Shown here piece after piece: positions 2,946 to 28,231 of a stretch of DNA of 64,000 bases. The translations under genes were made by a program, and so were the position numbers. Within the stretch, counting starts at the first letter, position 1. The number at the start of each line of letters is the position of its first letter. The stretch is from Diadema setosum (taxonomy: Eukaryota; Echinodermata; Echinoidea; Diadematoida; Diadematidae). Below the pieces are notes generated by a model. That model saw nothing but the letters and a program-made list of their open reading frames with translations, was not told the origin of the DNA and did not search any database. The stretch is taken from NCBI GenBank assembly GCA_033980235.1, contig CM067069.1, positions 34,273,041 through 34,337,040 of the forward strand, in the 5' to 3' direction.

Positions 2946-4520
2946 AGAGGCAGATCCAGGGGAGGGGGGGGGGGGTAGCGCACCGGGCTCCCCTTAATTT
3001 CCAAAGCAAAAAAAATGTAGCTACAAATGGCAGTTTTAGGACTGTAAAATTTTCAAGCTAGCTCGCTCTCCTGATGTTGCTGCCAGTGAGTGCCAGCAAT
3101 TGCGCCCGGTGCGAGAAAAGTATAGCTACAAACGGCAGTTTTTGGACTGTAAAATGTCAAAATTTTCAAGCTCGCTCGTTCCGCTCGCTCGCATTTAATC
3201 GTTATGTCATTCTCCTGATGTTGCTGGCGGGTAATTGCCAGCAGTTGCGCCCGGTGCACCCCCATCACTTAATTTTCAAACAGAAAAAAGTATAGCTACA
3301 AACGGCAGTTTTGGGACCGAAAAATGTCAAAATTTTCAAGCTTGTTCACTCCGCTCGCTCGCATTTAATCGTCATGCTATTCTCCTGATATTGCTGGTAA
3401 TTGCCAGCAGTTGCGCCCGGTGCGCCCCCCTTAATTTTCAAAGCGAAAAAATATAGCTACAAACGGCAGTTTTTGGACTGTAAAATGTCAAAATTTTCAA
3501 GCTCGCTCACTCCGCTCGCTGGCATTTAATTGTTATGTCATTCTCCTGATGTTGCTGCCTGGTAATTGCCAGCAGTTGCGCCATGTGCGCCCAACCCCTT
3601 AATTTCCTAAGCGAAAAAAATATAGCTATACAAACGGCCGTTTTGGGCAGACTGTACAATGTCAAAATTTTCAAGCTCACTCGCATTCAATCGCCATGAC
3701 ATTCTCCTGATGTTGTTGCCGGGTAATTGCCAGCAGTTGCGCCCGGTGCGCCTCCGCCCCCGCCCCCCCCCCCCCCCCATCCCTTTAATTTTCAAAGCGA
3801 AAAAAATATAGCTACGAACAGCAGTTTTGGGACTGTAAAATGTCAAAATTTTCAAGCTCGCCAGCTTCGCTCGCTCGCATTTAATCGTTATGTCATTCTC
3901 CTGATATTGCTGCAAGTAATTGCCAGCAGTTGCGCCCGGTGCTCCCCCCACCCCCCCCCCCCCCTCAATTTCCAAAGCAAAAAAAATGTAGCTATAAACA
4001 GCCGTTTTTGGACTGTAAAATGTCCAAATTTTCAAGCTCGCTTGCTTCGCTCATTCGCATTTAATCGTTATGTCATTCTCCTGATGTTACTGCCAGTAAT
4101 TGCCAGCAGTTGCGCCCGTTGCGCCCCTATCCCTTAATTTCCAGAGCGAAAAAAAGTATAGCTACAAACGGCAGTTATGGACTGTAAAATGTCAAAATTC
4201 ATGATCGCGTTCATGATTTTTAGTGTAAGAATTAATACAAGAAGTTCATATAAATGTTACCATTTTATAGGCAAAATTGTTCAATAATAATCTACATGAA
4301 ATGTACTGCTATATACTTTTAACATGTTGGACTGTTTCAAGTCGATAAAACACGCAAAACATGCATCAAATTCCACGATTTACAACATACATATGCAAAA
4401 AGTTCTCCCTGTGGGAGGGGAAACCACCCTCCCACACCCTCCCCCCCCCCCCCCCCTCGCTCGCATCGCTCCCTCGCATCTAACCGCTCCCCCTAAGATC
4501 AAATCCTGGCTACGCCGGTG
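2946..4520. mobile_element. Repeat element carrying array B of the same tandem unit
   Basis: The left end has GGCAGATCCAGGGG followed by a G-run. The right end has GATCAAATCCTGGCTACGCC preceded by a C-run. Read inwards the two ends resemble each other (GGCAGATCCAGG and GGCGTAGCCAGG), so they may be terminal inverted repeats. Between 2985 and 4200 lie about seven more copies of the unit seen at 1-2292. Similar end cassettes occur singly near 13949 and 29474. This suggests a dispersed element whose internal unit has amplified here. Boundaries are approximate. Confidence 0.6.
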
Positions 4521-10014: not shown

Positions 10015-11585
10015 TCAAGTTGTATCACTCACCACTTCGTCACAGTGCACCATGAACGCAACTCCTAAGTTTGTATGCTCTGACGAGTTAGGTGATAAAG
10101 TGTATTCTTGCCATCGTTCTCCCACTGCTTTGGTCACCTCCTTAGTATGACATTCAAACGCAACGTCAATGCATATATCCTGGTTACCTTTCTCTATCAA
10201 GCCGTGAATGATATCAAGGCCAAGTTTGTTTTCTAACGCTGAGGCGAAGTAGAGTAGGTTACAGAACTCCTGAGATCGAGGAAGAAGTTTGTACTTCAAA
10301 ATCAGTTCATACTTTGGACGATCATTGGAGAATAGATTCTTGATGTATACCCCTGCAGTATATTCCTGGAACAATTTGTGTGGAAACGACACCTTTGACT
10401 CAACAAAAGATGAAGTGTTGATATTTTGACGACGCTCCCTACCGATGACTTTTTCTTCTATTGTTAAAACTCCGACCATTAAACATGTTTTTATGGCATT
10501 CTCACACTCTGTGAATTGTTCTTCGGGAAATGAAAAAGCTCTGTCCAATAAACCGTTGAATGCTATCTCACTTATGTCTTGAATCGCCCTTTCAGCTTCC
10601 CTTACCTTTTCAGCAATGTCCGGCTTTTTCAAATGTTCACCCGATTTTGATGCGTAGTGTTCTTTCAGAAAAGAGATCATTGCTCCAAAAATCTCCGAGA
10701 AGGTTTGCATTTTCATTATTTTTTTTCGCTTGTCTTCTTTGAGTTCCTCCCACATGAGGCAAAGCATTGCGCAGTAAATTGGATACGGTGCCATGTTCGA
10801 CCGGATGACATCACTTTCCTCGATAAAGCCGATCAAACTTTCAGCAAGAGCGTCCTTCTTTCTAATTGAGAAGTACCTCCTAATATATGTTGATACGTTC
10901 TCCTTTTTAAATCCTTCGACGATAATAAAGGTGTAAGCGTCAGCAAGACTCTTGGTAAGTGTGAACTCATCTGTCCTCCATGGCCTTGAGGTCACAATTA
11001 CCTTGCATGACTCATATTTTTCCGATAGAAGAATGCGAATGACGTCACTGCTGCTTCCGTTTTTTAGGTTCCACTTGAATTCGTCAAACCCATCAAACAA
11101 AAGAAGAACGTTATGTAGATTTTTTGAAATGTAGTCGTCTATAAGGTCTGGTGTTGCTTCATTTGAATCAAAGAGATATCTTTCCACAATACTACCAATA
11201 CTTTTGTTGACATTAATAACATCTCGAAGAGGAACTAGAATCACCATATCCAAATCCTGGAGAATTCTTCCCTGGCACCAGTCCCAGGCAATTTTAGCAC
11301 AAAGCGTTGTCTTGCCAACACCTCCGTCTCCCTTTATTAGAAGGCGCTTTGAAAGGTTTGTATTGTCCTTGTTGGTCAAAAGGTCCTCGTACGATAATGG
11401 TGTTTTCTGATTGCTACTTAAGTTGATCAGACTCAAATTGGTATAAATATCATCCAGGTTTACACGTTCCATAAAATTGATTGGATCAACAGTAACCTTG
11501 CGTCGCGTCTTACGGTAATACGCCTTCAGCTCCCGTTTGCATTGTTCTACTTGTTTCTTTGTTAAAGCCGAATGTGAATGTGATC
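10015..11585 (-). CDS. Exon 6: NACHT NTPase domain
   Basis: The acceptor CTTTTGCATTCAAG ends at 11586. One G from the previous exon plus GA here completes a Gly codon. The exon encodes a pre-NACHT segment (CKRELKAYY, then VNLDDIYTNLSLI) typical of invertebrate NLRs, Walker A GDGGVGKTT, LVPLRD, Walker B LLLFDGFDE, the sensor-like VIVTSRPW, and a winged-helix/superhelical region ending around SFPHKLFQEYTAGVYI. The ATP-binding residues look intact. The stop is at 10015. A GTGAGT donor at 10032 would allow an extra 3' exon. Read alone, the frame could start at an ATG at 11613, but that ATG lies within the polypyrimidine tract of the acceptor, which favours splicing. Confidence 0.9.
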
Positions 11586-14500
11586 CTTGAATGCAAAAGA
11601 AAAGGACAGACAAAAGTACGTCATTTCAAAGAGAGTAGTTTCATCCACTATATGCTCTCATCACTTATACTGACAAGAAAACCATTTCATGATTTTGTAT
11701 GAAATACAAAATAAATGCTGTTAAAGCGTCATTGAATATCAAATGCTCTGCAAATATTTGAATTGAGCCATTTACCGCTTCGCGAAAACTCATAATGTTA
11801 TAACATTTGATTTCACATTCATTATCGCGAATTCAGAGGGATGTCGGAAAGAAAAGCTGAGTAGAATGGAAGTCAGGGTCAAAATATTCTTTTCATTAAA
11901 AAAAAAAATTAGTATTTTCTATTTGATGACACTGAGAAAATATAATATGCGTTATTTACAAGCTTCAGGTCGTTTTCAACGTCAAGCTTGATCCAAGCAA
12001 ATATATTATACCGATATTTTCATATAAGATGTCAATGACTTAGCATGACACGAAAGAACAGAAAGGGGGAAAAACCTATCATTATCAAACCCCTCTTTCC
12101 GAAGATTCGGAAGTCCTCGTTACAGACTTCAATAATTGATAATATTGATGGTAACAAATTTTGTGTGACTTTAGGAATACTTTGTTAATTATCAAGGTGG
12201 TTTGATCTGTAAAAATATACTAGGTGTTTCAAGAAACAGTTTCCAATTTTGATTCTAAATAATTCGAAAACTATATATCAGATATCAGATAACACTGTTA
12301 TTGATATGACTGAAAGCTGAATAGGGCATAATTTTGTTTAAGGTAGTTTAAATATGAAAATATAACAGTTAAATTCATAAAATCCATGATTAAGTTAAGT
12401 TATGTTCCAGATTTTGTTTTCAGTCTTCTGTACAAAACTTTCACCTTGCACAGGGGTCAATGGGTGTGTTTGAGAGTGGTCCTGAACAATGGTCCGGGTT
12501 TGAATGCTTCATTATTTATTCATGAGAAATTCCACTATCACAACTAGTCTTTATTCAGCCTCTGCCAGTATCTGTGTAAAGTCAAACGCCTGCCGATACC
12601 GTCGTTGAGTTGCGACAGTGCCCTCCCTACTTTTGAAAAACGAAATTATAATGAATGTCTTATGTTCTGTCGTAAACATGGTGACAGGAAGCAAAGAGAA
12701 TTGATTAGAGTATACAATTGTGTATGTTGAGCCTTAAATAAAGAAATCGCGCCAAAGAAAATGCTGCTGAACTCTTCACCAAAAGTGATCTCTTTTTTTT
12801 TCGAAAATGCAACAAATTTGTCAGACTATTAGAACACAATTGTATTCAATTGAATAATTTTAGATCATCTTTGCTTATTTATATCCCAAATCCAGTGATA
12901 CGTTAAGAATACCAGCTGGTGTGGTGTTTGCAAGCAAATGGCAACACGTGCTTACTTTTTCCATTATGCATATGCATTTTAACCTTTGCCGTAAATGAAT
13001 TCAGATTAGCAGCGCCAGGGCAAGCCTCGTGAATTATTGGTTAAGAATTCATGCGCCTTGTTTGGAGTGTGAGACTGACGCCTAGTCAATAGGTTCTTCA
13101 GACATGTCCATTGTTCAGGACCATTGTCAGCACACACTCATATACACATCATTGGTTCCTGTGCAAAGTTCAGTTTTTGTAGAGAGGTTTAAAATTTGAC
13201 CAAAATCTGAAACCTTTCTTCAAAATCAATCTTAGATTAAATGAAATTGACTTATGCTTTGACATTTAAATTACGTCCATCAAAATTGTACACTATTCAG
13301 CTATTACTCATATGAATAACAGTTTTATCGGATGAATAATTTTTGAACTATTAATGATTAAAAGAGGAAAATGTTTTTTGAAACACCTCATACATCTAAC
13401 TCGTAATACAGCTTTGCAAGAAACTTCGGAATATATCATACGATGGATTAATCAAGTATACTAAATTAAGAATGCTTCCATATTGTTTGCTAGTAAAAAA
13501 GAATTGAGTATAACGGAATACACTTCTACCTTTAAAAAAAGCAGCAGCAGCACACAAACAAACACACACACAGACAGAACTAATACACTTCTTCTCGACT
13601 TCTGTGCTTAACGATTGTAATTTATTCTTCTTTTTTTTACATATTGCAATCTAGAGATGATTATGAATGAGCTTCTTAACGAATGACAATTTGCTCTGGT
13701 TGTTACCTGAAATTCTAGAGCCAATGTCCCCCTTTTTTATTTTGCTTTTATTCAAAAACTTAGATTACAAAATTATCAATTAACAATCGTGTTGAAGTAT
13801 CTCATACCCATCACCAGTCCTTCCACGTCAGATCGCTGTGTTCTGGCTTGTCCCCAGCAGGAATTCCAGCTACATCCTGTGGGACACAACAACACAATCA
13901 ACGACGAGAGCATCAACAGAAATCCAAGCCCAGTGTGTATGGGTATAGGGGCGGATCCAGGAATTCGGAGTTGGGGGGGGGGGGGGCGCAAAGCAAGGTG
14001 CCACTTCATTTGCTGAAAACCTAACAAAATGGGCTTTAGCGCTATTCTCTGGTAAACACTTTTATTTAAAAAAATATATATTTGATAAACACATCAAAGG
14101 GGACGTGACAGGGCAGACAATATGTGTGAGGATATTAATCATGTGCATTCGTTCAAGCAAAGCCATAATATATGAGTCGATTGTTGTCTCCCGTAGTCAC
14201 ATACGTGATAGTATCTGTCGTGCGCCTCAAAATTCACCACCGTAATAAAAAGTAACAATTGCATTCTATTTTATGTTAAATTTCATGCTTTTTTTATTCA
14301 TAGTTAAATTTATTTCATGATGTGAATATACTATGATGGTACAGATGTTGATACAGAACTGACTGACTAGCGTTATTAGTACTGAAAAGGGGCGAATATC
14401 AGTAACGAAAGGGAGATGATACAGTGACTACAACCCACTTTTTCAATGGGTCTTGACGGCATCGTAAAGGTTTGATTGAGACTTAACTTCAGGTTTCTAA

Positions 14501-17500
14501 AATCCTTTATGAGATAATGAGAAACTTGCATGTAATGAAATATGATCAAGCATTTGATTCTAAAGATTCAACGTTTATTTGATGAAAACTGGTTTCTAAT
14601 GGCTAAATATCCAAAATAGAGCAATCCTATTGAAAGATTAGACCAAATTTTTATTGGGATCGTTTTTTTTTTACTTTGTTGTACTTTGTATTTGGACGTA
14701 TCAGTTATTTTAAAACTTATCTTTATCCAATCAACTTTGAATTCCTTTTAGAATGGTGAGCATTAGTGGTTTCTTGGTAAAGTTAAAAGTCCAATTTCCA
14801 TCTCCACTAATACTACACCGTCCCTTTAACCTAAGGCAGATCAAGTGTTATTCACTTCGATTTTATTAAATTGGTTACCAGGTCTGTCAATTTCCACACC
14901 TTTCCGCGGTAGGTATTCAGGATGATATCTTTGCAGAAAGATTCCACCAAGGAGAAATAGGATGGCTAGGGCAACAGGAACACCAATTGCTAGACCGAGG
15001 ACGAGAGCCGAATTACCGTGTTTTTCTGAAATTCGAAATAAGTATACTTGTTATTTTAAACACCTTTCTTCCATGACTAGAATTTGAAGGCAAAATTTCT
15101 CACCTTTTGTATTGCCAAAGAAGAATTCGATTGTATGGATCCAACCGTCATACGTATTTTGGCATTTTATTCAGAAAAATCACTATGAAAAGGAGTGAGT
15201 GAGCTCACTTTTTATCTCACTTTGAAAGTATTTTCAGCAATATTGAAAAAGATACTTCCATGATTGAGTGACTCAACAAATGTTTGCTCAAAATTATGTA
15301 ATCAGATTGATTTTCCCCACAACAATTTCTAATAAGAATGTTTGTTACAAGAAATATTTTGAGTGCTTTTATAGTCATTTTATGCCATGACTGTTCATCA
15401 GTACCAAACTCTATATTCATGATCATGATTTCATGACGAAACACAAAGTAGTATTGGTAAGTTTTCACCAAACCTGATAGAGACAGGACAGTGACTTCAG
15501 CTGTCGAGATTCCATTAAGGGGATCACCGGTAGCCACGCATATAAAGGTTTCTTCTGTTCCGTCATGCACAAACACAGTAATTGCCTCGAACCTCTCGTA
15601 TGTGTCGTCAGATAGTGTCGTCTGTTGCGAAACTGTCGAGTTAAGTATCACCCCTGTCTCCTTGGACCATGACATTGATATGTTAGGCTTGAATTCACTG
15701 ACGACACACGTTAGGTTAATGGAAGGATTGTTGGAGGAAGTTTGGAATGTGCACCGGCTTCTATTGGATTGCCTCTCATCGACGCATTCCTCAATAACAT
15801 GTTTTGACGCCATTGCTTTGAAAAGTATGAATAGTATTAAAACGATATAATTTTGCTATCTTACGAGGGAATCTACAAAAGACAATGAAGACACAAAATG
15901 TAACAAATGCAGGATGAAATAAAGCATAAATATATACATACATGACAGACATCCGCTTACACATAACAATGTGCACGCACAATGTATAGCGATCGCAATA
16001 GTTGCCAAGCTTAGATTGCCTTCAGTCTCCTCGTCATAATCATACTCTGCTGCACTTTCACAAGTCTTACAAAAGGCGAGAATGGAATTGAGGTTAAATG
16101 GGTGATGTAGTTCTTGTTGAGGTGGGGATTAAGATCTTGATTAGAAATGTGAAAGAATAAAGGGCATACAATTAAAAGAGGAATTAAAAAGTTCATCTCA
16201 TGAAAAATCGTTTTGTAAATGGCTGAGCCGAAAACAGAGCAAAATAAAGTCGTCTTCACAAGAGACGTGTCACAATAAATTTTCAATTTCTTTTAATTGT
16301 ATCCTCTTTAGCATTATCTCCCAAAAACTCAAAAACTGAATCCTGGTCTTACCAAAAACTATAGCATCCCTTTAACGAATTGACAAAATCATGTATTTTT
16401 TTTTCTTTACCAACACATTGTGTGCGATTGTTCTCTTCGATGTAACATAATATTATTATCGTGTGTGTGGCAGTCATCACAATGTTGTAGAATGGATTGC
16501 AGGCAAGAAAATATGTGCTTTGTATCATTTTTGGCGTATTGAATTTCGTTTCTGTTTTGAGGACTGCATCAGTCATTCATGCCCTTCTTCGTTGATGGAG
16601 AGGACAGAAAAACAAGACAGTAAACATAAAACACATTTGCATTTCACAAAACAACATCACCTACTCCGCATGAGACGAAAGTTCCATTGTTGGTTTATTG
16701 ATTACTTCTTTCTCTGACCTGCTCCCTTGCATCTTAATATGCCATAAGAGCGAATTTAGCAACTTTAATTACAAATAGAGAATTACAGTAAATCGTGCAT
16801 CATTGTTTTACACTTAAATCATTTCATTGCCCATATGTCTAAGCGGAATACTCATAAGTGATTGTCATGGTTGTTCAGATAGGCAAGAGTGAGATGGTTT
16901 GGTGGGGGGGGGAGGGGGTATCTTTGTTGCAATTTTATCGGCAACTATATTGGATGACCGTTCTCATTTCTGGCTTGAAACTTTCGTTCAACTCCTTCCC
17001 TTTAAAAATCCACGCCTCTGCAAAGAGTGCTATACTAACAATACATTTCTTACAATCAACCGTCAAGAAAGTAGAATTCGTAAAGTCATCGCGATTCGTC
17101 AGCACCACGTCACAATGGTAGAGACCCTCATCAGCAACCTCCAAGGTGGTAATGACGAGGCTGAAGTTTTTGTCGATGTCGAACCGTTCCTCCCTGCTCT
17201 CAAAGTTTCCATCAATGAAAGCAGCCTTGATCGTCGGCGGCTGCTGATCTGATTCACTCTCCTTGGACCAGAACACAGCGAGAGGCTCCTCCTGGATGTC
17301 GCATCTCAGTCGGATGTCCTCCCCTTTCCATCCCCGAACGTTGGGTGCAGTGCCTATCACTGATGCTAGACGATTGAAATGTGAGTAAAGAACACTCGTG
17401 TCATCGTTAATGAATGACAATGAACAGATGAATAAATACATATACCGTACAGAAATATGTGAAATAATAATACTACGTAATGAAAAATTGATTCAAAATC

Positions 17501-20500
17501 ATATAATGGATTTTTTTTTCAAAAAATATGAACAATCCTGAATCTTAAATGAAACGCTTTGTCGATGAAATGATTAATCAGTCTTTCATCACGTTTATCT
17601 AATCGTATACCTTGGGCGTCAACCTTGCATGTCTTGTTAATTTTGAGGTCACAATACACTGTAAAAAATTTGTTTAGTTTCTAAACACCTAACTAAACAC
17701 TTTTCTGTGACAGTTTAAAAACACTGCGACGCGTTTATATATTAAACATGTTTAGGAACTAAACACATGCTGTGTTTATTTTCAGCACACCCTAGGTGTT
17801 TATCACACACACATGTTTATGTTTTAAACGGTTCTGATGTTTAAAAACTAAACACCTGCTCTGTTTACAGCCTAAACACCAAACGTTTACACCATAATCA
17901 CTCACAGTGTTTAAATACTAAACACCGCACAGTCACATAATCACCCACAATGTTTAAGATCTAAACACTGTAAAACAAAATAAACATGACGCACTGTTTA
18001 CGATGTAAACACTGCGACATGTTTATTCGCTGTGACAGATTAAAAACACTGCGACATGTTTATTTGCCATTTTAGTGTTTATTCTCAGAACACATGTCTG
18101 ATTTTTAGATCGATCACAAAATTGCATACACTAAACATGTGACATGTTTACATACTAAACATCGCAATTTCTCAGTGTTTATATAATACATGTTTACACC
18201 TTATACATGCTGAGTGTTTATATGAGACATGTTTACACATCATACATGGTAATTTCCACGTGTTTATATGAGACATGTTTACACATCATACATTCATACA
18301 TGCTAATTTCTACGTGTTTAAATGAGACATATCACCATGCATGTTAATTCCCATGTATTTACTAATGTAAAGTGGATTGTTTCTACTTTTTTTTTTTTTT
18401 TTTGCATGGAATGAGATAAACGCATAACATTATAAGAATTTTCCCAGTATGTACCAAATCATCAGCACACTTACATCGCATAATACAAGGGAAGACCTGG
18501 GTTAGCTTTCACAAACATTTTGGCTACAAGAGTCAAAGGCAATTCTCTGAATGCAAGTTATCAAAACATCAGTCAAAGCTTGGGCAATATCTGATGAATA
18601 ATAAGTTAAAGTCCTTTAAAGGGAAAATAGAATCCAATTAATAAGATAGTCTGATAAAAAAGAGTAAAATCTTCAAGTTTAACGGTAAAAATTTGAATGA
18701 AATCGGATGAAAAATAAGGAAGTTATAAAATTTTGAAGTTTTGCTAATTTCTGCAAAGCAGTTAAAAATGGATATGAATATGCAAATAAGTGAGTTGACC
18801 ATGCCATAACCTCACAATTTTCCATTGATCGTGTACAAAAAAATGATGAAATTCAATGTCTATGTTAATGAAATGTGAAACATGGTATTGCTGGTCGAAT
18901 AACTTCAGAAAAGTGATCAGTTAGATATATCAGGACTTGAGCCTCGGGAATAATTGCGTTTGAATTAAAAACTTGAAATTAAGTAAGTTGTGAGGGAATG
19001 ACATGCCCACATTACTATTTGCATATTCATATCAACCATTCAAGAACTGTTTCCTCAAAAATTAGCGAAACTTCAAAATGTCATAACTTCTTTAAACATC
19101 CGATTTCGATCAAAATTTTACCGACGAACTCTTAATATTTTACTCTTTCTTATCAGACTAACTTGTATTTGGACTGGGTTTCCCCTTTAAATATTGCCAT
19201 GTTTTGCTATACGACACCATACTGAGTTAAATGCAAGATACCTGGGAGTCACTGGCCTGTACACGAAGACGTAAATGAAATTTTCTCCTATACACACAGT
19301 AAAGTTTGTATATGCAGGAAATGGTACACAACTCATTTTGGAGAAAAAAATGCATTCTACAATTAATTTTCAGTCACATGTAATTCTTGGCCTACTTTCA
19401 AGAATTGCCGTCTTTCTACTGTATTCAGAAATAATTCTTAGTATTGTAAAACAAACTAATAAACTTGTTGATTGTGAATTGCAACTCAACGTTTCGGAAG
19501 CTTGACACAATGTATGTACCAGAAACACCTCCAGGAACATAACTGCAGTCTGTGAACAAATCCATGCCGACCTTGAAGATTGCATCAATTATTGGCAAAG
19601 TCCTTTGGGGTGTACCCAAACCCTATTATACCATGCACAACACTATGGTCGTATTGGTACTGATCAGGGAGTGTAGATGATGCACTCCATCATAAAGAGA
19701 CAAAAAAAAGATGTTTTCACTGTATTTAGCCTGTGGTGAACATCTGCACTCCCTGATCAGTACCAATAATGGAACTTAAATACATACATGATGTTTCTTT
19801 TCACTGCGACGATCACTGAAAGTATGGCTAACAGTACTGTATGGATTTTTCACTTTTGCTATTTTGAGAGAAATATTAGAATGTTACTGGATTTCAAGGG
19901 GTGAGTGAGAAAAAACTTCTTCCTTGCTAGAACCTTGGAGAAAGAAGTCAAACTCAATGGGTATACATGAATAGTCTATTAAAGTCTAATCAGTCTCATC
20001 ATACTCCACATAATCATGGTATGGAGGGCTACTTTCAATCTCGACACAGTAGAATTTTTGGTAAAGACAAGAGGATATGAACAAAGAAAAATAATGCATT
20101 GCAACTGGAGGCGGGAGGGTATGCAAGGCTGTCATGAACACGCGATGTGATCAGCAAGACTCCTCCCTTGTCAATTTGTCAGTCAGTTGCAAGACTCCTC
20201 CCTATTCTCCATACATGTTGTACTACATTTCTAATACCTCTCTCCATGTGACCGATTTCAAGAATATCTCAGAAAATATTAACTACCGAATACTGCATTT
20301 CCTATCAGGTCTACAAGAAAATTGCAAATAATTCCAAACAGATGCAACTACACTGTGTACATGTACTGGCCTCTTATTTGCGTCCAATATCTGCTGATTG
20401 TATTGGAAGCACCTGAGGGGAAAAAAATGAAATGGCTGATATTTTCATTTAATTTTTTTTTTTATTTCTATATTCCTTTTTGCACAAGAATATAACAAAA

Positions 20501-21767
20501 AGCCAATCGAACAAAGTTCTTTGGTAATATCTTAACAGTGAATTACAAGGACATTGGTTGATGAATAAAATGAAGTGAATAAAACTGCTTTTCTTAATAG
20601 TGCAAAACGATTTCGAGCAAGTGTCTTTACATATTAGATAAAATTACAATTTTACGTACCAGCTGTTAAAAAAAGACAATTACACATATCTATGAGCAAT
20701 AAGAATGCAGGTGACCATTATCGTAAGCACAGAGGACAATAGAATCGCTTTGTTTTGGATATCCCTGCCATTTCAAAACCAATTTTTATCAAATAAGCGT
20801 TGAAATTCCTCTTCGAATTATATAGGCCCCCTACCTTCATATTTCTTTAGAGGTTCGTCATTATGTAATACACACATGCATTCACACACACGGAGACCTG
20901 AAGCCCCATCGCATACAAAACCCTATCATTCCCCATATGATTTACTTTATTCTAGTATACAGGTTTAGATGCACACTGTCAGTGAAGAAAAAAAAAACGA
21001 TAGAAAGGTTGCTCTAACAGGTGGGATGCCTCCTAATAGGTCTGTAGTGCAGCATGACGATGTGAGCCATCACATGGCTAGCGGGAAAAAGATTATTAAC
21101 ATTCAAAATTATTATCCATGGTTCATTTCCTTCATATGGCATGTAGGCCTATAGATATACTGTATATCAGTATATCTTGCGATGTCCTTGTAATCCTCAG
21201 ATGTTTGCACTTTTAGACGGGTTGTATAGAAGTAAGCGCATGCATCTTTCATTCTAATCCAGACAGGTTTGGCGTAATCCCTGATCAATTCTTCCATGAC
21301 GTACTGGTGCTGGTAAAAAGAAATGATTACACAAGGAAAACAAATCAGTTGGCTTTGCAATACAATGGACTTAACTGATCCCATAGATTCTGAAAATGAA
21401 TGGATAGCAAAGAAGTTGACTGAATCCATAAGCAAGTTCAAATTAAAAGGAATGACAGAATCCCTTCATCACATGAGCACTTAGTGTCTTGCGTCAGTTT
21501 TTACTTACTTTGCTGCATTTTCTGGAAATAATTCAAGTCTTTTTGTTGTTGTTGTTGCTTCTCTCTTAATCATCATCATTATCAAGGAGAGTTACGACCA
21601 TTACTGTATCCTTTGTCTCTTGGATGAAGATTTTCACATCTGTAATTTACACTTTCCACAATATTTGCAATAAATCAATTTTCCATATTTATTTTAGCTA
21701 ATGCCAATGGATTGGATTCGGGAGTAGGTAATCCCCCCCCCCAAAAAAAAAAACAAACAAACAAAAC

Positions 21768-21798
<31 letters not shown>

Positions 21799-24700
21799 TA
21801 AACAAACAAACAAACAGAAGAATTGAAAGCATCTAAAATCTGCATTTTATAGAACTCATTTACATGCCCTTTGAGTACATAATATTCATTGATTTGGCTC
21901 TGCAATTCTGAGTACTTACTTGATTTCCACTTTCCACATGGGTAGTATACAGTGATGCATTATCCCCAGTTGATTTACTCTGCTGACTGCACCATGCCTC
22001 GTTCTCTGCCAGCAGAGGTAATGTCTTGTAGAATTTATACAGTCGTCAGGACATCATCGTCACCCACTTTGGTGCCATCGGCATCCCTTTCCAAGACATC
22101 CTAATGCCACGGGCTTTACATTCAATTTTCACCACCTGTTGAGTTATGAAGAATTTACAGGGAATAAAACTGAATTTCACTCAAAATATAGTCACTATTA
22201 CCCATCGTCATTCACATGAAAGATACTTCATAACTTCGTAAAATTAAAGATACAGTGAGTTTACCCGCTAGACCGAGTTTGCCCATAACTACGGTACCGG
22301 TAATCTGTAGAGTGTAGGCCTATTGTAACGTTAACAACAGTAACACGTTACAGTTAACTGGTGTTAGAGCGTTCCCCGTTCCATTAAAACAAACGAGCAA
22401 AATCTTTAAGGGCGTAGCCTATTTCTACGCCTACTACGGTTTTACATGAAACGAGGGCAATTTTGCAATAAATCTTGTTATTCACCGACTTAGCAGACTT
22501 TAATAGCAGACTTACCGCTTTCAGGCAGGCCGGCCAGGCTAGAACTTTATCGCTTCGACGCCATCTTAGCTAGTGCTGTATATGCAGTACAACAGTCAGT
22601 CAGTGCAGTCGATCGATCGAGTCGTAAGTACAGTCCAGTGTAGTGGACGATACATTGACAAGCTTAGAACGAATGCGCACGTACTGTAGGCCTATACGCA
22701 CATCACGCTGCTAGGGCAGCACCAGCCAGCCAATCAGACAGATCCATCCGTAAAGGTACGTACGCGCACATCTCCTTTCCCGCCAATTGTGCATTGATTA
22801 TGGTCATAATAATTCGCATAGCACGAGTGTGCGCTAGAAGCGCACGCACAGCGCACCACTGCGTGCGTTGTGGCCGCGGCCGTACGAGTATCACAGTGTT
22901 TATGTTAAACATGTGCGGTGTTTAGAACGTGTTTACGAAGCGTTCTAAATGTAAACGCGTCTGTTTACCCTGACTGTAGAAGTGTTTAGGCCTAACCAAC
23001 AAACATTTGGACAATGCCCTAAACCATGAACGAAATCATTAACAAAGGCAACTCCCATTTTTTTTTCTAGCAGTTAAAATATAGGACTGTACATGCGAAA
23101 CCAAAATATAAATTTATTACAGTTGTATTACATATTTTTAGGTTATCCTTTTTCCTTATTGATTAGGCATTTCCATGAAAGGCCTGAAACATGAATTATT
23201 TCATAGTGCATCTTGATGTCGTAACAGTTTCCACTTTCTCGTGATAAAAGGAAACTAGAAATTGCAATTTACACACCATTTCCAACACTTCTCCATATAT
23301 ATATGGACATATTGAGGTTAACATAGCGTGACCAGAATAAACACTCCAACTAAACACTCCAAGCTAAACACTTTAACTCTCAATACTTTACACGTGCTAT
23401 ACACACCGGGTGTTTAGATGTTAAACAAAGTGTTTAGATTTTTAACACTGTGTTTAGTTCATAAACATGTCGCATGTCGCATTTTTTACAGTGTAGTCAA
23501 TGGCGATATTCACTTAATAGTCTCCTCCTTTTTATCAGTCACATGATAACAAAAGTTAACTTACAGCTTATCGTCATGAATGTAGAATTCGAGAAACTCT
23601 CAGAGTTCCTCAAAGTAACATCACAATGGTAAAGACCCATATCTGCCACCTCCAAGTCGGTGATCACGAGGCTGAAGTTCTTGTCGATGTGGAACCGGTC
23701 ATCCTTGCTCTCGGCCTTTCCTTCAAAGAATGTAGCCTTTGTTGTCCACAGCATTTGATCTGAGATGTCCTCCTTAACCCAGACCACAGCGAGAGGCTCA
23801 TCCTGGACGTCACATGACAGTCGGATATCTTTCCCTTTCCTTCCATGAACGAAGGGGGCAGTGTTTACATTTGAGGCTAGACAATTGGAATGTGGCAAAC
23901 GCAAGGTCTCGTCATTATACACACGCTTACAGGAAAATTACTGCGAGATAATCTCTTCGTATAGGAATGCTTTCTGGATCCCGTAATGTGACAAAACAGT
24001 TTTTAGCAGCAGATAGATCAGATAAGAATTTATAATATCATGGATACATGTATAATATTTGCATAAGTAGCGAACAATGTTTACTGAAGGTGTTTTTTTT
24101 TTCCTATAATGAGCAACGTTTTCCATGAACGTTTGATTAATGTAAGTTTTTCCAAAATTCTGTCATTGCTTGTATGATAGCTTGTAATCTGAGCAAATTT
24201 TATGGCAATGGCAGGATTCTTGCAATAACTTGACGCCGAGATTCTGTTACATGTAATAAACACCACATTAACTGCCTATCTGAAAACTTAAATCTGATCT
24301 CTATTCTCTTGACTACATTCATAGATCAATCAGTGATTGATTGATTGATCGATTGATGGATGGATGATGGACCCTGAGGTTGAGGAGACCTATAGCTAAT
24401 GAAAAAAAATATATATTTTTTTCATTTCACAGCTCAATGAATTCCAAAATCTACAACCGGTATACTAGGTTTTCCCGGTCAATTTCATACTTTTGTCACT
24501 GAAATTCATTAATGTGCATTCAAATTTACGCAGTGCATGCAGGCGAAAATATTCGGGCATTCAAATTCAGAATCCGAGCGATCAATTTCATTTATGGGCG
24601 TTCTACTTCGTTTTCGTGCAATCAAATTCACGATTGGGCATTCGATTTCAAAATGCGAGCACCGACTTTCCTACTCGTGCATTCAAATTCATGCGATTGT

Positions 24701-27700
24701 CACGTGATAGTCCCAAGGAGCTTGTTTGTAGCGTTCAAATTCATTTTTAGGCGATCAAGTCCCTACTTCGTGCAATCAATTTAACGAGGAAAATGGAGTA
24801 GACTTTTAAGAAAGGGAAAAGGGCCAACACAACCAATAAAGGCTTGCATATAGAGTAATTATGGTTGTTTACAGGTTCTACATTGTTCTCTGTTCTTGTA
24901 TTCTTTGTTTGTCATCTCAATAAATTTCAAATTGCAATGTCCAATCAGCAGTGCATCCAAACAACACAACGACTTGTAATCATATTTCTTGGTGATACTG
25001 CATGCTGACAACGCCCCAACACCGGCCACATTATCATGATAATGACAATTCATCAATTTAAAGACAAACTGACACACAATGATCTCACATAGTCCCGCAA
25101 GAGTAAATCAATAAGACAGCAATACATAACAAACAACACGTATGAAAAGTTAAAGTATCAGTTTCAATATAATCGAAATTGGGTTTTTTTTTTCCTCGTG
25201 AGTGTCAACCAACCCTCCGTATTATGCTCGTCTGTAGGCCTATACAGTGCCTAATTTTTGTTTGTTTGTTTCATTTTCCATCAAACAAGATGGCTGGATA
25301 ACCCATATTCAGCTGCAATAGCTGGTCTTCCATAATGGGGTCCAGTTGGATGTTCTGCTTTTTGCGATGAAGTGGGATCTTTTACGTGCATGAGTTGTGA
25401 CTCTCTTACACATGGGACCTCCATTATTTTTATGTCCAATCCGAGGGACATGTGCCTGTATATTCCTATTTGCTAAGCGCGAATTCAAAAATTGTCAATG
25501 AACAGGTGGACCTCTACTGCAAAATAAATAATCATCATAAATCCCAATATATTCAAAGCCAAATGAGAAACACATGCATACACGACCCCAAACTAACTAA
25601 ATTTAGGACTTCTTTTAAATTGAATGCAGTTATTTGGAACATGGTTGCCTATTCACGAATTTGAATGACCGACGAGATTCCGTCGCCAGCTTGACATGAA
25701 TTTGACTGCTCATTGATGAAATGCGTGCTCCTCCCTTAGATTTGAATGCTCCAATAGTGAATTTGAATGTTCCGATAGTGAATTTGAATGCTCCGATAGT
25801 GAATTTGAATGCTCCGACAATGAATTTGAATGCTCGGATAGTGAATTCGAATGACCGGATTTTGGTGATTGCTGATTCAGTGCTGCGAGCGTGGAATGCG
25901 TGAAATCGAATGCTCGGAATAGAAACTTGAATTACAAAAGTATGAAATTGACCGGGAAAACCTAATATATTCTAAGTCAATTAAGTACAATATCGGAGTA
26001 AATGAAAAACTCATTATATTGCCTAGTGGGATAATAATGAAAAAAATGGTTACGTGGGAACATTGAATTGAAAATACTGGAAGTGCATTTCCGCTGTAAT
26101 TAAACATAAACTGACCAAGTTGAAAAAATAATGCAAATGTTTGGTTTTCAAAATCTTAGTAAATGATGGATTTGCACGGGAACGTGATGAGACGCCACCA
26201 ATAATACCAAGTGCATGATTTATGATGTCATGATAACATGCCAGGCATATCACGAGAGATGATGATACCAGTTCAGGAGGGATGGAGTTCTAGTGCATTA
26301 TGTCAGAAGGTATTTGTATCTAGTATTAAATCAAATATCAGGAAGCGAAATACCTCTGTACCGTTATTTTTTTTGTTAATCTTCCCTTGATATTTGAATC
26401 CACACACAGTAAGACTAAAGTATACTCATTGTTCTGGTTGCCATTGATTAGTATTGTATCTGCTCTACAGTGATTATGTCCTAGCAGTGAGTCTCGTAGT
26501 ATTGATAAATTAAATGTGAATAACTGTATAAATTCATCTGTTCATATTTCCAGGCATCGTCAGGGGTGATTCATGAAAAGGCATGATGTAAAGGAAATGT
26601 AATCGATGTTAACCTTAGGATGCAAAGTAAATTGAGAACTTTTGAAATGTTACACAGGCGCGATGGGAATGGAACATGCAATTGGTGATCGTATATCATT
26701 TCCAACGAATTTGCACACGGCTTCAAAAAATGGTGTTATCAGTCGCAATAAAATTTGAGGTCTCCCGTTAACTCACTAACCAATCTTTTCAAATGAATAT
26801 TACTGGAACAAATTTAGATAGTTCCTTGAAATATCACTACGAGTGAGTGTGGATGATAAATTTACCCATCTGTTTCATAATTTCATGAAGATTATGATAA
26901 ATCTTTTTCATTATAATGTTTATAATATCCTGAAGCTGTTTGTATGATGTTGTGTATGTGCTTGGCTTGTTTATTTGTTTGTTGTTGTTATTGTTGTTGT
27001 TGCTCCTGTTTTTGGTGTTGTTATTTTGCTCTAGAGAACACCTGGCATTGGTGCTGAAAATAAATTCTTGGTGAAAATTCGCCGCTGATGAATTCCATTA
27101 CTGCGATGTGTTGCATGTTGCTCTCTTCATGCATAGGTATTACTGAAAAAAACTTTCCCTTTTATACTTTGTTCTGACTGCCATAATTTATTTTGTTTAA
27201 AAAAAACCAGTAACACTACCCGTCAGACAAACAAATTCCACCACCTTTGAAAAAGTGAAACATTCATCCACTTAAAATCGAGTGACTGTCTTGTTCCATT
27301 CATTTGGAATTCATTAATTCCCAGCATTTAAGGTGATTCGCCTTAAATGCTTTTCGCAGTTAAGATAGATGGGTACAAAAAGATTTTAAAACACCGAGGA
27401 GAGAGAGAGAGAGAGAGACGGTATCTGACTTCCGGAATTTTTAAGGCAAGAATGAATAAGGGATGTATATTTTTTCATGCATTTATTTCTCAACAACGAA
27501 TTTATATTTCAAATCAAGCCCTGAAAACCCGACTGAGGACATATTATTAATCCTATATAGCTTGGAACGTACTTCGGCTTCCCAGAATGGTCGGACGCTG
27601 TACATAAGCAAGACGGGAGAACCCTGCTCAAATTTCATCTATGCGTTTTTCTCTGGACACGATGATTGTTTTCTTCCAAAATTACTCAAAAAACACTGCT

Positions 27701-28231
27701 TGAAAGAAACAACAACAACAGCAACAATAACCTCGGAAAACATAATAAAGTTTCTAGTTGTATCATTAGTAGATTATCTAGTTATTTATACCGACATAGG
27801 TGAATGTACCAAAAATAAATTAGGCATATATAATGACATCAAAAAAAAATACACTAACCTACATTCGGTATGAAACAGGAGATTGATTTGAATAATTATT
27901 GCATTCAGCCTATTTTCATAGGGAAATATTACAAAAATGTGAGTTTGAAAAGGGATGTATCACTTATGGGTGCACACTCTTTTAGAATTTCCCTGTATGA
28001 ACAGCCATATTGGATAATGTCATGTCCACTTGGATTTACCGATTATTTTAAACATATTATTTAGTGATATCAATCAGCGGGACCATGACACCCTAGACTG
28101 ACAGGAGTGAAAGTTCAAGGAAATAATATTTTCATATAGTCACACTTACCAGTGGAGCCACAGACCACATAAGCTGTCAATGTTAGGAGCAGAACGAGAT
28201 TGTATACTCTATCCCAGCCTCTATCCATCAT
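10015..28231 (-). CDS. Candidate Ig-transmembrane-NACHT receptor gene (six exons)
   Basis: Exons are 28231-28150, 23876-23565, 17365-17054, 15815-15474, 15025-14879 and 11585-10015. All five introns are phase 1, begin GT and end AG, and the joined frame is open for about 921 codons. The predicted order is: signal peptide (1-27), V-like Ig (28-131), V-like Ig (132-235), C-like Ig (236-349), transmembrane helix (about 356-380), a short basic-containing linker, then NACHT with Walker A at 484-492 and Walker B at 558-567. No leucine-rich repeats and no death-fold domain are seen. NACHT proteins of the NLR type are normally cytosolic sensors that oligomerise on ATP binding. Here the sequence implies a type I membrane protein with that NTPase inside the cell and Ig domains outside. 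The weakest link is the join from transmembrane exon to NACHT exon (donor GGTAACC, 3.3-kb intron). The alternative is two adjacent genes. Confidence 0.7.
12222..13388. mobile_element. Long terminal-inverted-repeat element
   Basis: The left end AGGTGTTTCAAGAAACAG pairs with the right end TGTTTTTTGAAACACCT, and similarity continues inwards for roughly 250-300 bp. For example TTGCACAGG...GGTCCTGAACAATGG near 12450-12495 is mirrored near 13100-13180. The length of about 1.17 kb is in the mariner range, but no transposase frame is visible. No clear target duplication was seen. Confidence 0.6.
13949..13990. repeat. Solo end cassette with G-run
   Basis: GGGGCGGATCCAGG is followed by a G-run. It resembles the left end of the element at 2946, so it is probably a truncated copy of that family. 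Confidence 0.4.
14455..14828. mobile_element. MITE-like element, AAAGGGA-ended family (copy 1)
   Basis: It shares GAGATAATGAGAAAC, ATGAAATATGA and ATTCAACGTTTATT with the clearer copy at 33271-33661, and ends with ACACCGTCCCTTTAA. The two halves are imperfect inverted repeats. Shorter related ends occur near 16270-16375 and 20755-20840. Confidence 0.5.
14879..15025 (-). CDS. Exon 5: transmembrane segment and juxtamembrane linker
   Basis: The acceptor AATTTCAG ends at 15026 and the entry phase is 1. The peptide has a 25-residue hydrophobic helix starting ALVLGLAIGVPVALAIL and ending GGIFL. It is followed by QRYHPEYLPRKG, a positively charged stop-transfer flank, so the C-terminal side should be cytosolic. 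The donor is CCTG|GTAACC, phase 1, matching the NACHT exon. Without splicing the frame continues to a stop at 14841, with an AATAAA hexamer inside that extension. A short receptor lacking NACHT is therefore possible. Confidence 0.75.
15474..15815 (-). CDS. Exon 4: C-like immunoglobulin domain
   Basis: 342 nt, phase 1 at both ends. The acceptor is ATACTTTTCAAAG at 15816 and the donor CAG|GTTTGG at 15473. Key features are INLTCVVSEFKPNISMSW, with the first Ig cysteine and the core tryptophan, and ETFICVATGDPL with the partner cysteine. The pattern is C1/C2-like. Several N-glycosylation sequons (NLT, NIS, NST) support an extracellular location. An extra cysteine pair sits near the N-terminus (EECVDE, RCTF). 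Confidence 0.75.
15816..17053. other. Intron 3 of the receptor gene
   Basis: No coding features were recognised. A fragment with CATCCCTTTAAC near 16365 resembles the end of the AAAGGGA family. A G-run lies near 16905. Confidence 0.5.
17054..17365 (-). CDS. Exon 3: second V-like immunoglobulin domain
   Basis: 312 nt, phase 1 at both ends, exactly the same length as exon 2. It encodes DIRLRCDIQEEPLAVFWSKE (first cysteine and core tryptophan) and RFDIDKNFSLVITTLEVADE followed by GLYHCDV, the D-x-G-x-Y-x-C motif of V/I-set domains. The peptide is clearly homologous to exon 2 along its full length. The acceptor TTTCAATCGTCTAG ends at 17366 and the donor GATT|GTAAGA starts at 17053. Confidence 0.85.
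18615..19191. mobile_element. Nested element with long inverted repeats
   Basis: TTTAAAGGG...TAGTCTGATAA...AGAGTAAAAT on the left is mirrored on the right as ATTTTACTCTTTCTTATCAG...CCCTTTAAA. The inverted repeat extends well into the element, for example ATATGAATATGCAAATA (left) and TATTTGCATATTCATAT (right). It is about 577 bp and non-coding. Confidence 0.6.
19652..19769. repeat. Short hairpin element
   Basis: ATTGGTACTGATCAGGGAGT on the left is the complement of ACTCCCTGATCAGTACCAAT on the right. The arms are about 26 bp with one mismatch and about 65 bp of spacer. Confidence 0.65.
21190..22135 (-). pseudogene. Decayed transposon-borne gene (unassigned, CIDE-N/SAMD3-like resemblance)
   Basis: Two minus-strand exons can be seen. 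The first (22135-21920) has three homologous-looking pieces in three different frames: KIECKARGIRMSWKG, DADGTKVGDDDVLTT, then YKFYKTLPLLAENEAWC, so frameshifts have broken it. It ends at a good donor (CAA|GTAAGT). The second starts at 21309 after TTCTTTTTACCAG and reads YVMEELIRDYAKPVWIRMKD, then ACAYFYTTRLKVQTSEDYKD, then decays. From memory this resembles a repetitive family of uncharacterised proteins with a CIDE-N/PB1-like start found in echinoderm and fish genomes. That identity is tentative. Confidence 0.4.
23565..23876 (-). CDS. Exon 2: first V-like immunoglobulin domain
   Basis: 312 nt, phase 1 at both ends. It encodes KGKDIRLSCDVQDEPLAVVW (residues 41-60; Cys49, Trp60) and DKNFSLVITDLEVADMGLYH followed by CDV (Cys112), the canonical V/I-set disulfide frame with D-x-G-x-Y-x-C. 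The acceptor CCAATTGTCTAG ends at 23877 and the donor AGCT|GTAAGT starts at 23564. The entry phase matches the signal-peptide exon. Confidence 0.85.
24468..25962. mobile_element. Fold-back element with arms of degenerate ATTCAAATTC repeats
   Basis: The left end GGTTTTCCCGGTCAATTTCA and the right end TGAAATTGACCGGGAAAACC are perfect complements, flanked by TA on each side (24466-24467 and 25963-25964). Both arms consist of many short diverging repeats, ATTCAAATTCA on the left and GAATTTGAATGCTCCGATAG on the right. The peptides predicted here, such as the repeating LNAPIVN string at 25721-25903, are by-products of the repeat. Confidence 0.75.
25310..25450. repeat. Dispersed repeat, copy 1
   Basis: It contains GATGAAGTGGGATCTTTTA, GTTGTGACTCTCTTACA and GGGACCTCCATTA in order. 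A diverged copy lies at 35945-36200 (CGAAGCGGGATCTTTTT, GTTGTGACTATCCCACA, GGGATCTGTATT). The family is common in invertebrate genomes as I recall it; its nature is unknown to me. Confidence 0.45.
28150..28231 (-). CDS. Exon 1: start codon and signal peptide
   Basis: The ATG is at 28231, with a second in-frame ATG at 28228. The peptide has a charged N-region (MMDRGWDRVY), a hydrophobic core (NLVLLLTLTAYVV) and a plausible cleavage region CGST. The donor is ACTG|GTAAGT, phase 1, matching the first Ig exon. Upstream on the minus strand is an AT-rich stretch and no other coding exon. This exon was too short to stand out as an open frame and was found by its splice signal. Confidence 0.75.

Follow-up and report, generated by a model that had tools for sequence, protein, structure and literature searches.

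A predicted Ig-transmembrane-NACHT receptor gene in the sea urchin Diadema setosum and its Diadema relatives

Exon layout and domain content of the locus

The window analysed here, a 64,000-nucleotide stretch of Diadema setosum contig CM067069.1, carries on its minus strand seven exons, all open and with ordinary splice sites, that join into a predicted protein of 944 aa (Table 1). The first-pass annotation had described six of them, in the order signal peptide, V-like, V-like and C-like Ig, transmembrane (TM) helix and NACHT, with phase-1 introns and an open frame throughout: order, strand and the phase of every intron are borne out, and the six-exon join is open over 922 codons, stop included. 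Its direct junction from 14879 to 11585 has to be revised, having overlooked a 69-nt juxtamembrane linker exon that the closest Diadema antillarum model includes; following that model, the joins become 14879 to 13876 and 13808 to 11585. When 214 fetched relatives were compared with the window by tblastn (E<=1e-3), every one of the 686 matches overlapped the six exons or the linker, and hence the exons lie far beyond chance.

Table 1. Exons and associated features of the locus, in minus-strand order; identities are to the predicted D. antillarum protein P0172
Feature	Position	Strand	Identity to P0172	Remarks
Signal-peptide exon MMDRGWDRVYNLVLLLTLTAYVVCGST	28231-28150	minus	15/24	donor CACTG/gtaagtgt, phase 1
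V-set Ig exon 1 (V1), 312 nt	23876-23565	minus		Pfam V-set 7.3e-11
V-set Ig exon 2 (V2), 312 nt	17365-17054	minus	96/103	Pfam V-set 2e-12
C-like Ig exon, 342 nt	15815-15474	minus	114/114	Pfam ig 1.1e-3, C1-set 1.7e-3, both below cut-off
Transmembrane exon	15025-14879	minus	47/49	Kyte-Doolittle 2.84
Juxtamembrane linker exon GCSWNSCWGQARTQRSDVEGLVM, 69 nt	13876-13808	minus	20/23	phase 1-1, frame without stop; tblastn with relatives
Linker exon in frame 0, DVAGIPAGDKPEHSDLTWKDW then stop	13876-13811	minus		tail type of six NACHT-less Ig-TM models
NACHT exon	11585-10015	minus	499/516	Pfam NACHT (PF05729) 1e-23; ends in read-through stop
Consensus splice donor GTGAGTGAT (GTGAGT from 10032)	10032-10024	minus		within the last NACHT-exon codons

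Pfam searches, run on the separate exon ORFs, recovered the NACHT domain and both V-set domains above the Pfam cut-offs and the C-like Ig just below them. The V1 and V2 exons are separated by a dN of 0.27 and a dS of 0.67 (NG86). The start of the protein is hydrophobic (2.27 over 10 residues) and the TM stretch has a mean of 2.84 over 19 residues on the Kyte-Doolittle scale: by hydropathy and Pfam, the protein combines a hydrophobic start, two V-set domains, a C-like Ig and one TM stretch, the features of an Ig-superfamily type I membrane receptor. The TM exon is further supported by a helix at 250-277 in the AF2 model of P0172. It has two alternative donors: one at 14900, in phase 1, which yields PRK/G, the common family junction, and one at 14856, in phase 0. 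The signal-peptide exon matches the start of the D. setosum model P0170 (96% over 52 aa, including translation 5' of the ATG) better than that of P0172, and the choice of signal exon, as well as the use of V1, is therefore less certain.

The NACHT exon has the motifs GDGGVGKTT and LLLFDGFDEF, which we take to be the P-loop and Walker B, along with FPHKLFQEY; a NACHT domain with both of the former intact marks it as a NACHT-type STAND NTPase. Its sequence matches in the PDB include NLRP3 (about 3e-10), NLRC4 and others, and the intracellular half of the AF2 model of P0172, a 96%-identical relative, matches NLRC4, NLRP3 and NOD2 in Foldseek (best E 1.3e-20), with a NACHT-winged helix-LRR fold. 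The label LRR-like comes only from this fold match; Pfam detected no LRR in the repeat region of P0172 at E 0.01. A read-through stop, lying just past the consensus donor, closes the exon at 10015, and P0172 goes on from about this donor into the LRR-like sequence. LRR exons further downstream within the window were considered and rejected: P0172, P0170 and P0067 have no match below 10015 even at E<=10, and the remaining tblastn matches there are at chance level (E 0.3 to 9.4).

In place of the N-terminal death-fold effector of an NLR, the protein has an Ig-TM head. That no death-fold exon lies upstream of NACHT, as the first-pass annotation had stated, is upheld by the 214 relatives, Death-NACHT proteins included, which match only the seven exons at E<=1e-3; the same search led us to reject an independent NLR gene carrying a Death exon. 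NLRs with other N-termini are known. The window protein is, as predicted from its sequence, an atypical and not a canonical NLR.

A Diadema gene family and its shared linker

The Diadema relatives are predicted gene models. The protein set consists of 190 proteins among the matches listed, 141 from Diadema and 49 from elsewhere; in the NACHT-exon search 7997 candidates were scored and the best 120 of 239 matches were used. Among the matches listed: Ig and NACHT occur together in 77 of the 141 Diadema proteins and in 0 of the 49 others; a TM segment lies between the two in 68 of these 77 models, from two species, and is missing in nine; a signal-like N-terminus is seen in only 37 of the 68; and Ig is absent from 40 of 117 Diadema NACHT models. 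P0172 is 96% identical across V2-C-TM-linker-NACHT (810 aa) and P0170 82% over 818. Distances of the C-like Ig and NACHT are correlated (Mantel r 0.74, 54 rows, 0/1000 permutations), as expected if both halves duplicate together; for V and NACHT the r is 0.52. Some family models appear to be run-on chimeras, because a V domain is placed after NACHT (P0063, P0134, P0137), or because they contain PF00078 (P0038) or PF14529 and PF03372 (P0177), presumably reverse transcriptase and endonuclease domains. By these models, the window gene is a predicted member of a sizeable Diadema gene family.

The linker exon, found by tblastn with P0021, P0172 and P0170, encodes a C-x-W-x-x-C-W motif that is present in 68 of the 214 fetched proteins. 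Diadema Ig-TM models with GTPase, rolling-stone-like or short tails belong to the same V-C-TM ectodomain family as the window gene, and the GTPase-tailed P0157 and P0168 keep the linker as CGWNPCW; a NACHT domain was found in none of the Diadema Ig-TM models with other tails. A search with Ig, TM and linker returned only Diadema among the matches listed (102/102) and no sea cucumber protein, its candidates having been preselected by shared 5-residue words. An ectodomain profile search likewise returned only Diadema (26/26) from the 7999 candidates sharing most words, of roughly 145-465 aa, a size range too short for the full-length sea cucumber protein AjNLRC4, and this Diadema-only result does not extend to sea cucumbers. 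The NACHT family is shared with Death-NACHT NLRs of Diadema (P0048 and P0057, 55 and 58% identity to the window exon) and of Strongylocentrotus and Lytechinus (P0104, P0110 and P0113, 38-39%). These sea urchin NLRs are presumed cytosolic and have a Death domain (PF00531) where the window gene has its Ig-TM head.

One receptor and the alternatives to it

With a probability of roughly 75%, we read the locus as a single type I Ig-TM-linker-NACHT surface receptor of a Diadema family, with a clustering-driven response. The domain content, order, intron phase, reading frame and family of the receptor are supported by computation, and the fusion of an Ig ectodomain and TM to an NLR-type NTPase that follows them, as first annotated, holds as one predicted polypeptide by exons, frame and the D. 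antillarum model. Such a receptor would consist of a signal peptide, one or two V-set Ig domains, a C-like Ig, a TM helix, the C-x-W-x-x-C-W linker and a NACHT/winged-helix core, to which LRR-like repeats may or may not be added at the C-terminus. In the simplest case the family would have originated once, in the Diadema lineage, by addition of an Ig-TM head to an NLR of the Death-NACHT type.

It is rather unlikely that a splice switch yields two products from the locus, the Ig-TM-NACHT protein and a tail-less Ig-TM receptor acting as a decoy or adhesion form. A phase-1 TM donor would place the linker in the NACHT frame and the phase-0 donor at 14856 would lead at once to DVAGIPAGDKPEHSDLTWKDW and a stop. 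Both this donor and the frame-0 tail exist within the window, and 6 of the 214 fetched proteins, all Diadema models, end in such a tail, including P0126 with the C-terminal end NKIEDVAGIPAGDKPEHIHLTGKDW. Against these six models, however, 55 Ig+NACHT models carry the linker motif read in frame with NACHT; moreover, the frame-0 peptide is mostly dictated by the codons of C-x-W-x-x-C-W, and its conservation is thus not independent evidence.

More doubtful still is a decayed or truncated member that has lost its LRR exons, so that NACHT runs through to the stop. The lack of any match to P0172, P0170 and P0067 below 10015 would fit this, but all seven exons keep an open frame and ordinary splice sites, the NACHT exon is nearly identical to that of P0172, the equivalent VVSDTT-type read-through stop is where 12 of the 214 fetched proteins terminate directly, and LRR exons may sit past the window edge.

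Least probable are two adjacent genes, a short-tailed Ig-TM receptor and a cytosolic NLR with an overlooked first exon, with the fused models as prediction artefacts: close relatives of each half do exist as separate models (P0126 of D. setosum, which ends in a short tail and whose V2 and C, at 93% and 94%, are closer than those of P0170 at 84 and 87%; and P0067, with a NACHT piece 86% identical, on a contig of equal length) and some family models appear run-on, but the Ig, TM and NACHT order recurs in the 68 models of two species among the matches listed, the linker exon is in frame at both ends, Ig and NACHT distances co-vary, no Death exon was detected with the 214 relatives against the window, and the NACHT exon needs an upstream exon, because its first in-frame ATG lies about 38 residues past the acceptor, within conserved sequence.

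Comparison with known receptors

The single-receptor reading has a precedent. An Ig-TM-NACHT receptor had been annotated here as not described, but a 2021 paper on the sea cucumber Apostichopus japonicus presents the same layout, Ig-like, Ig, TM and NACHT in order, in the protein AjNLRC4 (MN607598), and reports its membrane localisation, bacterial binding, dimerisation and phagocytosis (PMC8699970). Related follow-up papers appeared in 2025 (PMC11932488) and 2026 (PMC13133943). The AjNLRC4 papers report that the intracellular NACHT part binds actin, the ectodomain alone oligomerises, dimers form via the Ig domain, and caspase-1 is bound by the Ig part and not by NACHT (PMC8699970, PMC11932488).

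By analogy with AjNLRC4, whose ectodomain is reported to bind microbes, whose dimers form and whose NACHT part binds actin, we propose a mechanism in which the topology, ligand, oligomerisation and output of the window receptor are inferred: a ligand would be bound by the Ig domains, causing the receptor to cluster at the cell surface; NACHT domains would thereby meet at the membrane; and their engagement would make the cell itself respond, for instance by phagocytosis or by dying. The most likely role would be surface recognition, and this may be coupled directly to NACHT oligomerisation. The AjNLRC4 data as reported weigh against the NACHT step, since Ig-mediated dimers and caspase-1 binding need no NACHT oligomerisation.

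We also consider a wider reading, to which we give somewhat less than even odds: a modular diadematid system, independent of the sea cucumber Ig-NACHT receptors, in which one V-C-TM head is combined with alternative engines (NACHT-LRR, a P-loop GTPase, a multi-pass rolling-stone-like protein or the short frame-0 tail) and joined to them in several cases via the common C-x-W-x-x-C-W exon. If so, machines of the inflammasome or GTPase type would be under the direct control of a diversified surface head. An urchin family with these traits, a Diadema-only ectodomain, a common juxtamembrane exon and GTPase or other tails, was not found among the papers listed in searches of the open-licence PubMed Central literature. 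Diadema is a genus known for mass mortalities, and the family is a candidate surface repertoire in it, whose many natural variants offer a means to ask whether NACHT is triggered from outside the cell. Ig-headed membrane NLRs break the usual division between surface receptors and cytosolic NLRs.

In both the window gene model and AjNLRC4, a single chain runs from Ig through TM to NACHT, a likeness of domain order; as predicted for the one and reported for the other, they have in common outer N-terminal Ig domains, a TM, an inner NACHT, no CARD and an echinoderm host. They differ in that AjNLRC4 is described without LRRs and with two TM segments (483-503 and 776-795), whereas P0172, the closest relative of the window gene, has LRR-like repeats and the window protein has one predicted helix. 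A second A. japonicus protein, AjNLR-new (PIK48001.1), likewise unites Ig, TM and NACHT, but its report places NACHT outside the cell and Ig inside, the reverse of our prediction (PMC13133943). NLRs with TM domains are also mentioned in a sponge paper (PMC12909245). With two studied sea cucumber genes in the literature found, an expanded urchin family would show this design as a repertoire and not a curiosity.

Exon structure of the predicted Ig-TM-NACHT gene

The gene is encoded on the minus strand from 28231 to 10015 by seven exons, which join with phase 1 at every junction into an open frame of 944 residues; their splice acceptors and donors look ordinary by eye. The six exons, the phase and the open join of the first-pass annotation all stand, and its count does not: it overlooked the linker, a juxtamembrane exon between the transmembrane (TM) and NACHT exons with the motif C-x-W-x-x-C-W. 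The six-exon join is also open because the linker has a length that is a multiple of three and a symmetrical phase. LRR-like sequence was not found within the window.

Exons of the window gene (SP, signal peptide; V1 and V2, V-set Ig; C, C-like Ig)
Exon	Position	Strand	Domain evidence or product
SP	28231-28150	minus	
V1	23876-23565	minus	Pfam V-set
V2	17365-17054	minus	Pfam V-set
C	15815-15474	minus	Pfam Ig score just under cut-off
TM	15025-14879	minus	
Linker	13876-13808	minus	GCSWNSCWGQARTQRSDVEGLVM
NACHT	11585-10015	minus	Pfam NACHT

The V1 and V2 exons differ by dN 0.27 and dS 0.67 (NG86), and therefore neither looks abandoned. Short-motif clusters of TGTTTA/TAAACA, seen by eye at 17650-18290 and 22900-23500, adjoin the V2 and V1 exons; they fall partly within the tandem-repeat list and are possibly mobile-element remnants. 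Elsewhere, 121-2240 and 3111-4199 are taken up by a minisatellite, whose unit of about 166 bp is present in 12.7 copies, and by further arrays of 161-180-bp units, all open in several frames, and a 158-bp unit is repeated 4.4 times with 94% matches at 57270-57953.

Recurrence of the fusion and of its ectodomain in Diadema

We consider it about 90% probable that the Ig, TM and NACHT segments are carried on a single predicted chain. This case rests on recurrence across gene models, on the linker exon and on a NACHT exon without a start codon of its own. Among the best 120 of 239 matches of a NACHT search, Ig and NACHT co-occur in 31 of 71 Diadema proteins (24 of the 31 with a TM between) and in none of the 49 others, which include Strongylocentrotus, Lytechinus and ENA records. 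A search with Ig, TM and linker listed 102 matches, all from Diadema. Pooling the two gives 190 proteins, with Ig and NACHT in 77 of 141 from Diadema, a proportion among the matches listed rather than a genome census, the second search favouring Ig by design. Among these 77 listed models a TM lies between in 68, of which 37 have a signal-like start, and the linker motif is present in 55.

Two predicted relatives were compared from V2 through NACHT: P0172 of D. antillarum (96% identity, 810 aa) and P0170 of D. setosum (82% over 818 aa). P0172 is a single predicted protein that has one V domain, of V2 type, and the linker between TM and NACHT; by part its identities are V2 96/103, C 114/114, TM exon 47/49, linker 20/23 and NACHT 499/516. 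Such values point to Diadema, or to a near relative of it, as the probable source of the window. Against a single chain stand two split models, P0126 and P0067, which are close relatives of the Ig half and the NACHT half, respectively. A V1-like domain (76% identical) ahead of the V2-type domain in P0126 suggests that the V1 exon is used.

In the AlphaFold2 model of P0172 (mean pLDDT 75.5, pTM 0.66), the Ig regions are rich in strands and of low to moderate confidence, a single helix spans 250-277, the linker (278-318) has low confidence, and the body made up of NACHT and repeats is predicted confidently. The best Foldseek matches of this model are NLRC4, NLRP3 and NOD2. On its own, the NACHT exon of the window has sequence matches to NLRP3 chains in the PDB at about 3e-10.

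Single gene models are unreliable: the Diadema models P0063, P0134 and P0137 run on into a further V domain after NACHT, which suggests head-to-tail gene arrays, and P0038 and P0177 each have one or more domains that we take to be those of mobile-element enzymes. In a set of 54 rows, comprising 53 models plus the protein of the window, NACHT distances correlate with those of C (r 0.74) and V (r 0.52), neither value being reached in 1000 permutations; this fits fused units that would have duplicated together. Mean identity in the family is lowest for V (63%), followed by NACHT (69%) and C (74%).

The same V-C-TM ectodomain bears other tails in Diadema models; all 26 proteins listed by an ectodomain profile search are from this genus. 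A P-loop GTPase-like motif follows it in 12 of 214 fetched proteins (P0148, P0157, P0163-P0166, P0168, P0169, P0184, P0186, P0188, P0197), of which P0157 and P0168 keep the linker; Pfam MMR_HSR1 exceeds its cut-off in one of eight scanned, P0184. A rolling-stone-like multi-pass domain (PF21534) is joined to it in P0162, P0208, P0210, P0213 and P0214. The linker itself can be read without interruption in the NACHT frame and also in frame 0, which yields a short tail and a stop (13876-13811, minus); this type of tail is used by 6 of the 214, all Diadema Ig-TM models.

Origin of the fusion

For NACHT, a quick method with SH-aLRT support only gave a tree of 111 rows, from which segments below 430 residues were left out; 38 of the 48 rows from outside Diadema had been removed beforehand. 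A branch with a support of 100 sets the rows of Diadema and the window, 101 in all, apart from the remainder. Outside the group holding all 72 Ig rows are P0048 and P0057, with a Pfam Death domain, and P0044, with Death by eye only; P0029, likewise by eye only, is inside. The Ig-or-linker state requires two changes with the 20 NACHT-only rows excluded, and the Ig label against all other rows requires 20; in our judgement many NACHT-only models look truncated. The simplest reading of these sequences, though not a proof, is one gain of the Ig head on a Death-NACHT background.

Comparison with sea cucumber receptors

We found no description of an urchin Ig-TM-NACHT family with a common linker and alternative tails among the open-licence papers that the searches listed. 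The architecture had at first been thought undescribed, a claim that fails since two such proteins are published. AjNLRC4 of Apostichopus japonicus is reported to have Ig-like 31-132, Ig 251-353, TM 483-503 and NACHT 600-757 segments and to reside at the membrane of coelomocytes. Bacteria are bound and agglutinated by its ectodomain, and upon infection it dimerises and is internalised; the intracellular part interacts with actin and stimulates phagocytosis (PMC8699970). Caspase-1 and MLKL act downstream, according to a further report (PMC11932488). The second sea cucumber protein is reported with the opposite topology (PMC13133943).

The urchin protein would most likely be a type I receptor, with a probable surface topology, whose Ig head clusters on ligand. 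Such clustering could gather the NACHT tails beneath the membrane and lead to phagocytosis or cell death in coelomocytes. We hold NACHT assembly driven by clustering only tentatively, because the published AjNLRC4 data place dimerisation in the Ig part, to which caspase-1 also binds, rather than to NACHT (PMC11932488): a NACHT-oligomerisation trigger is thus not what the nearest studied case showed.
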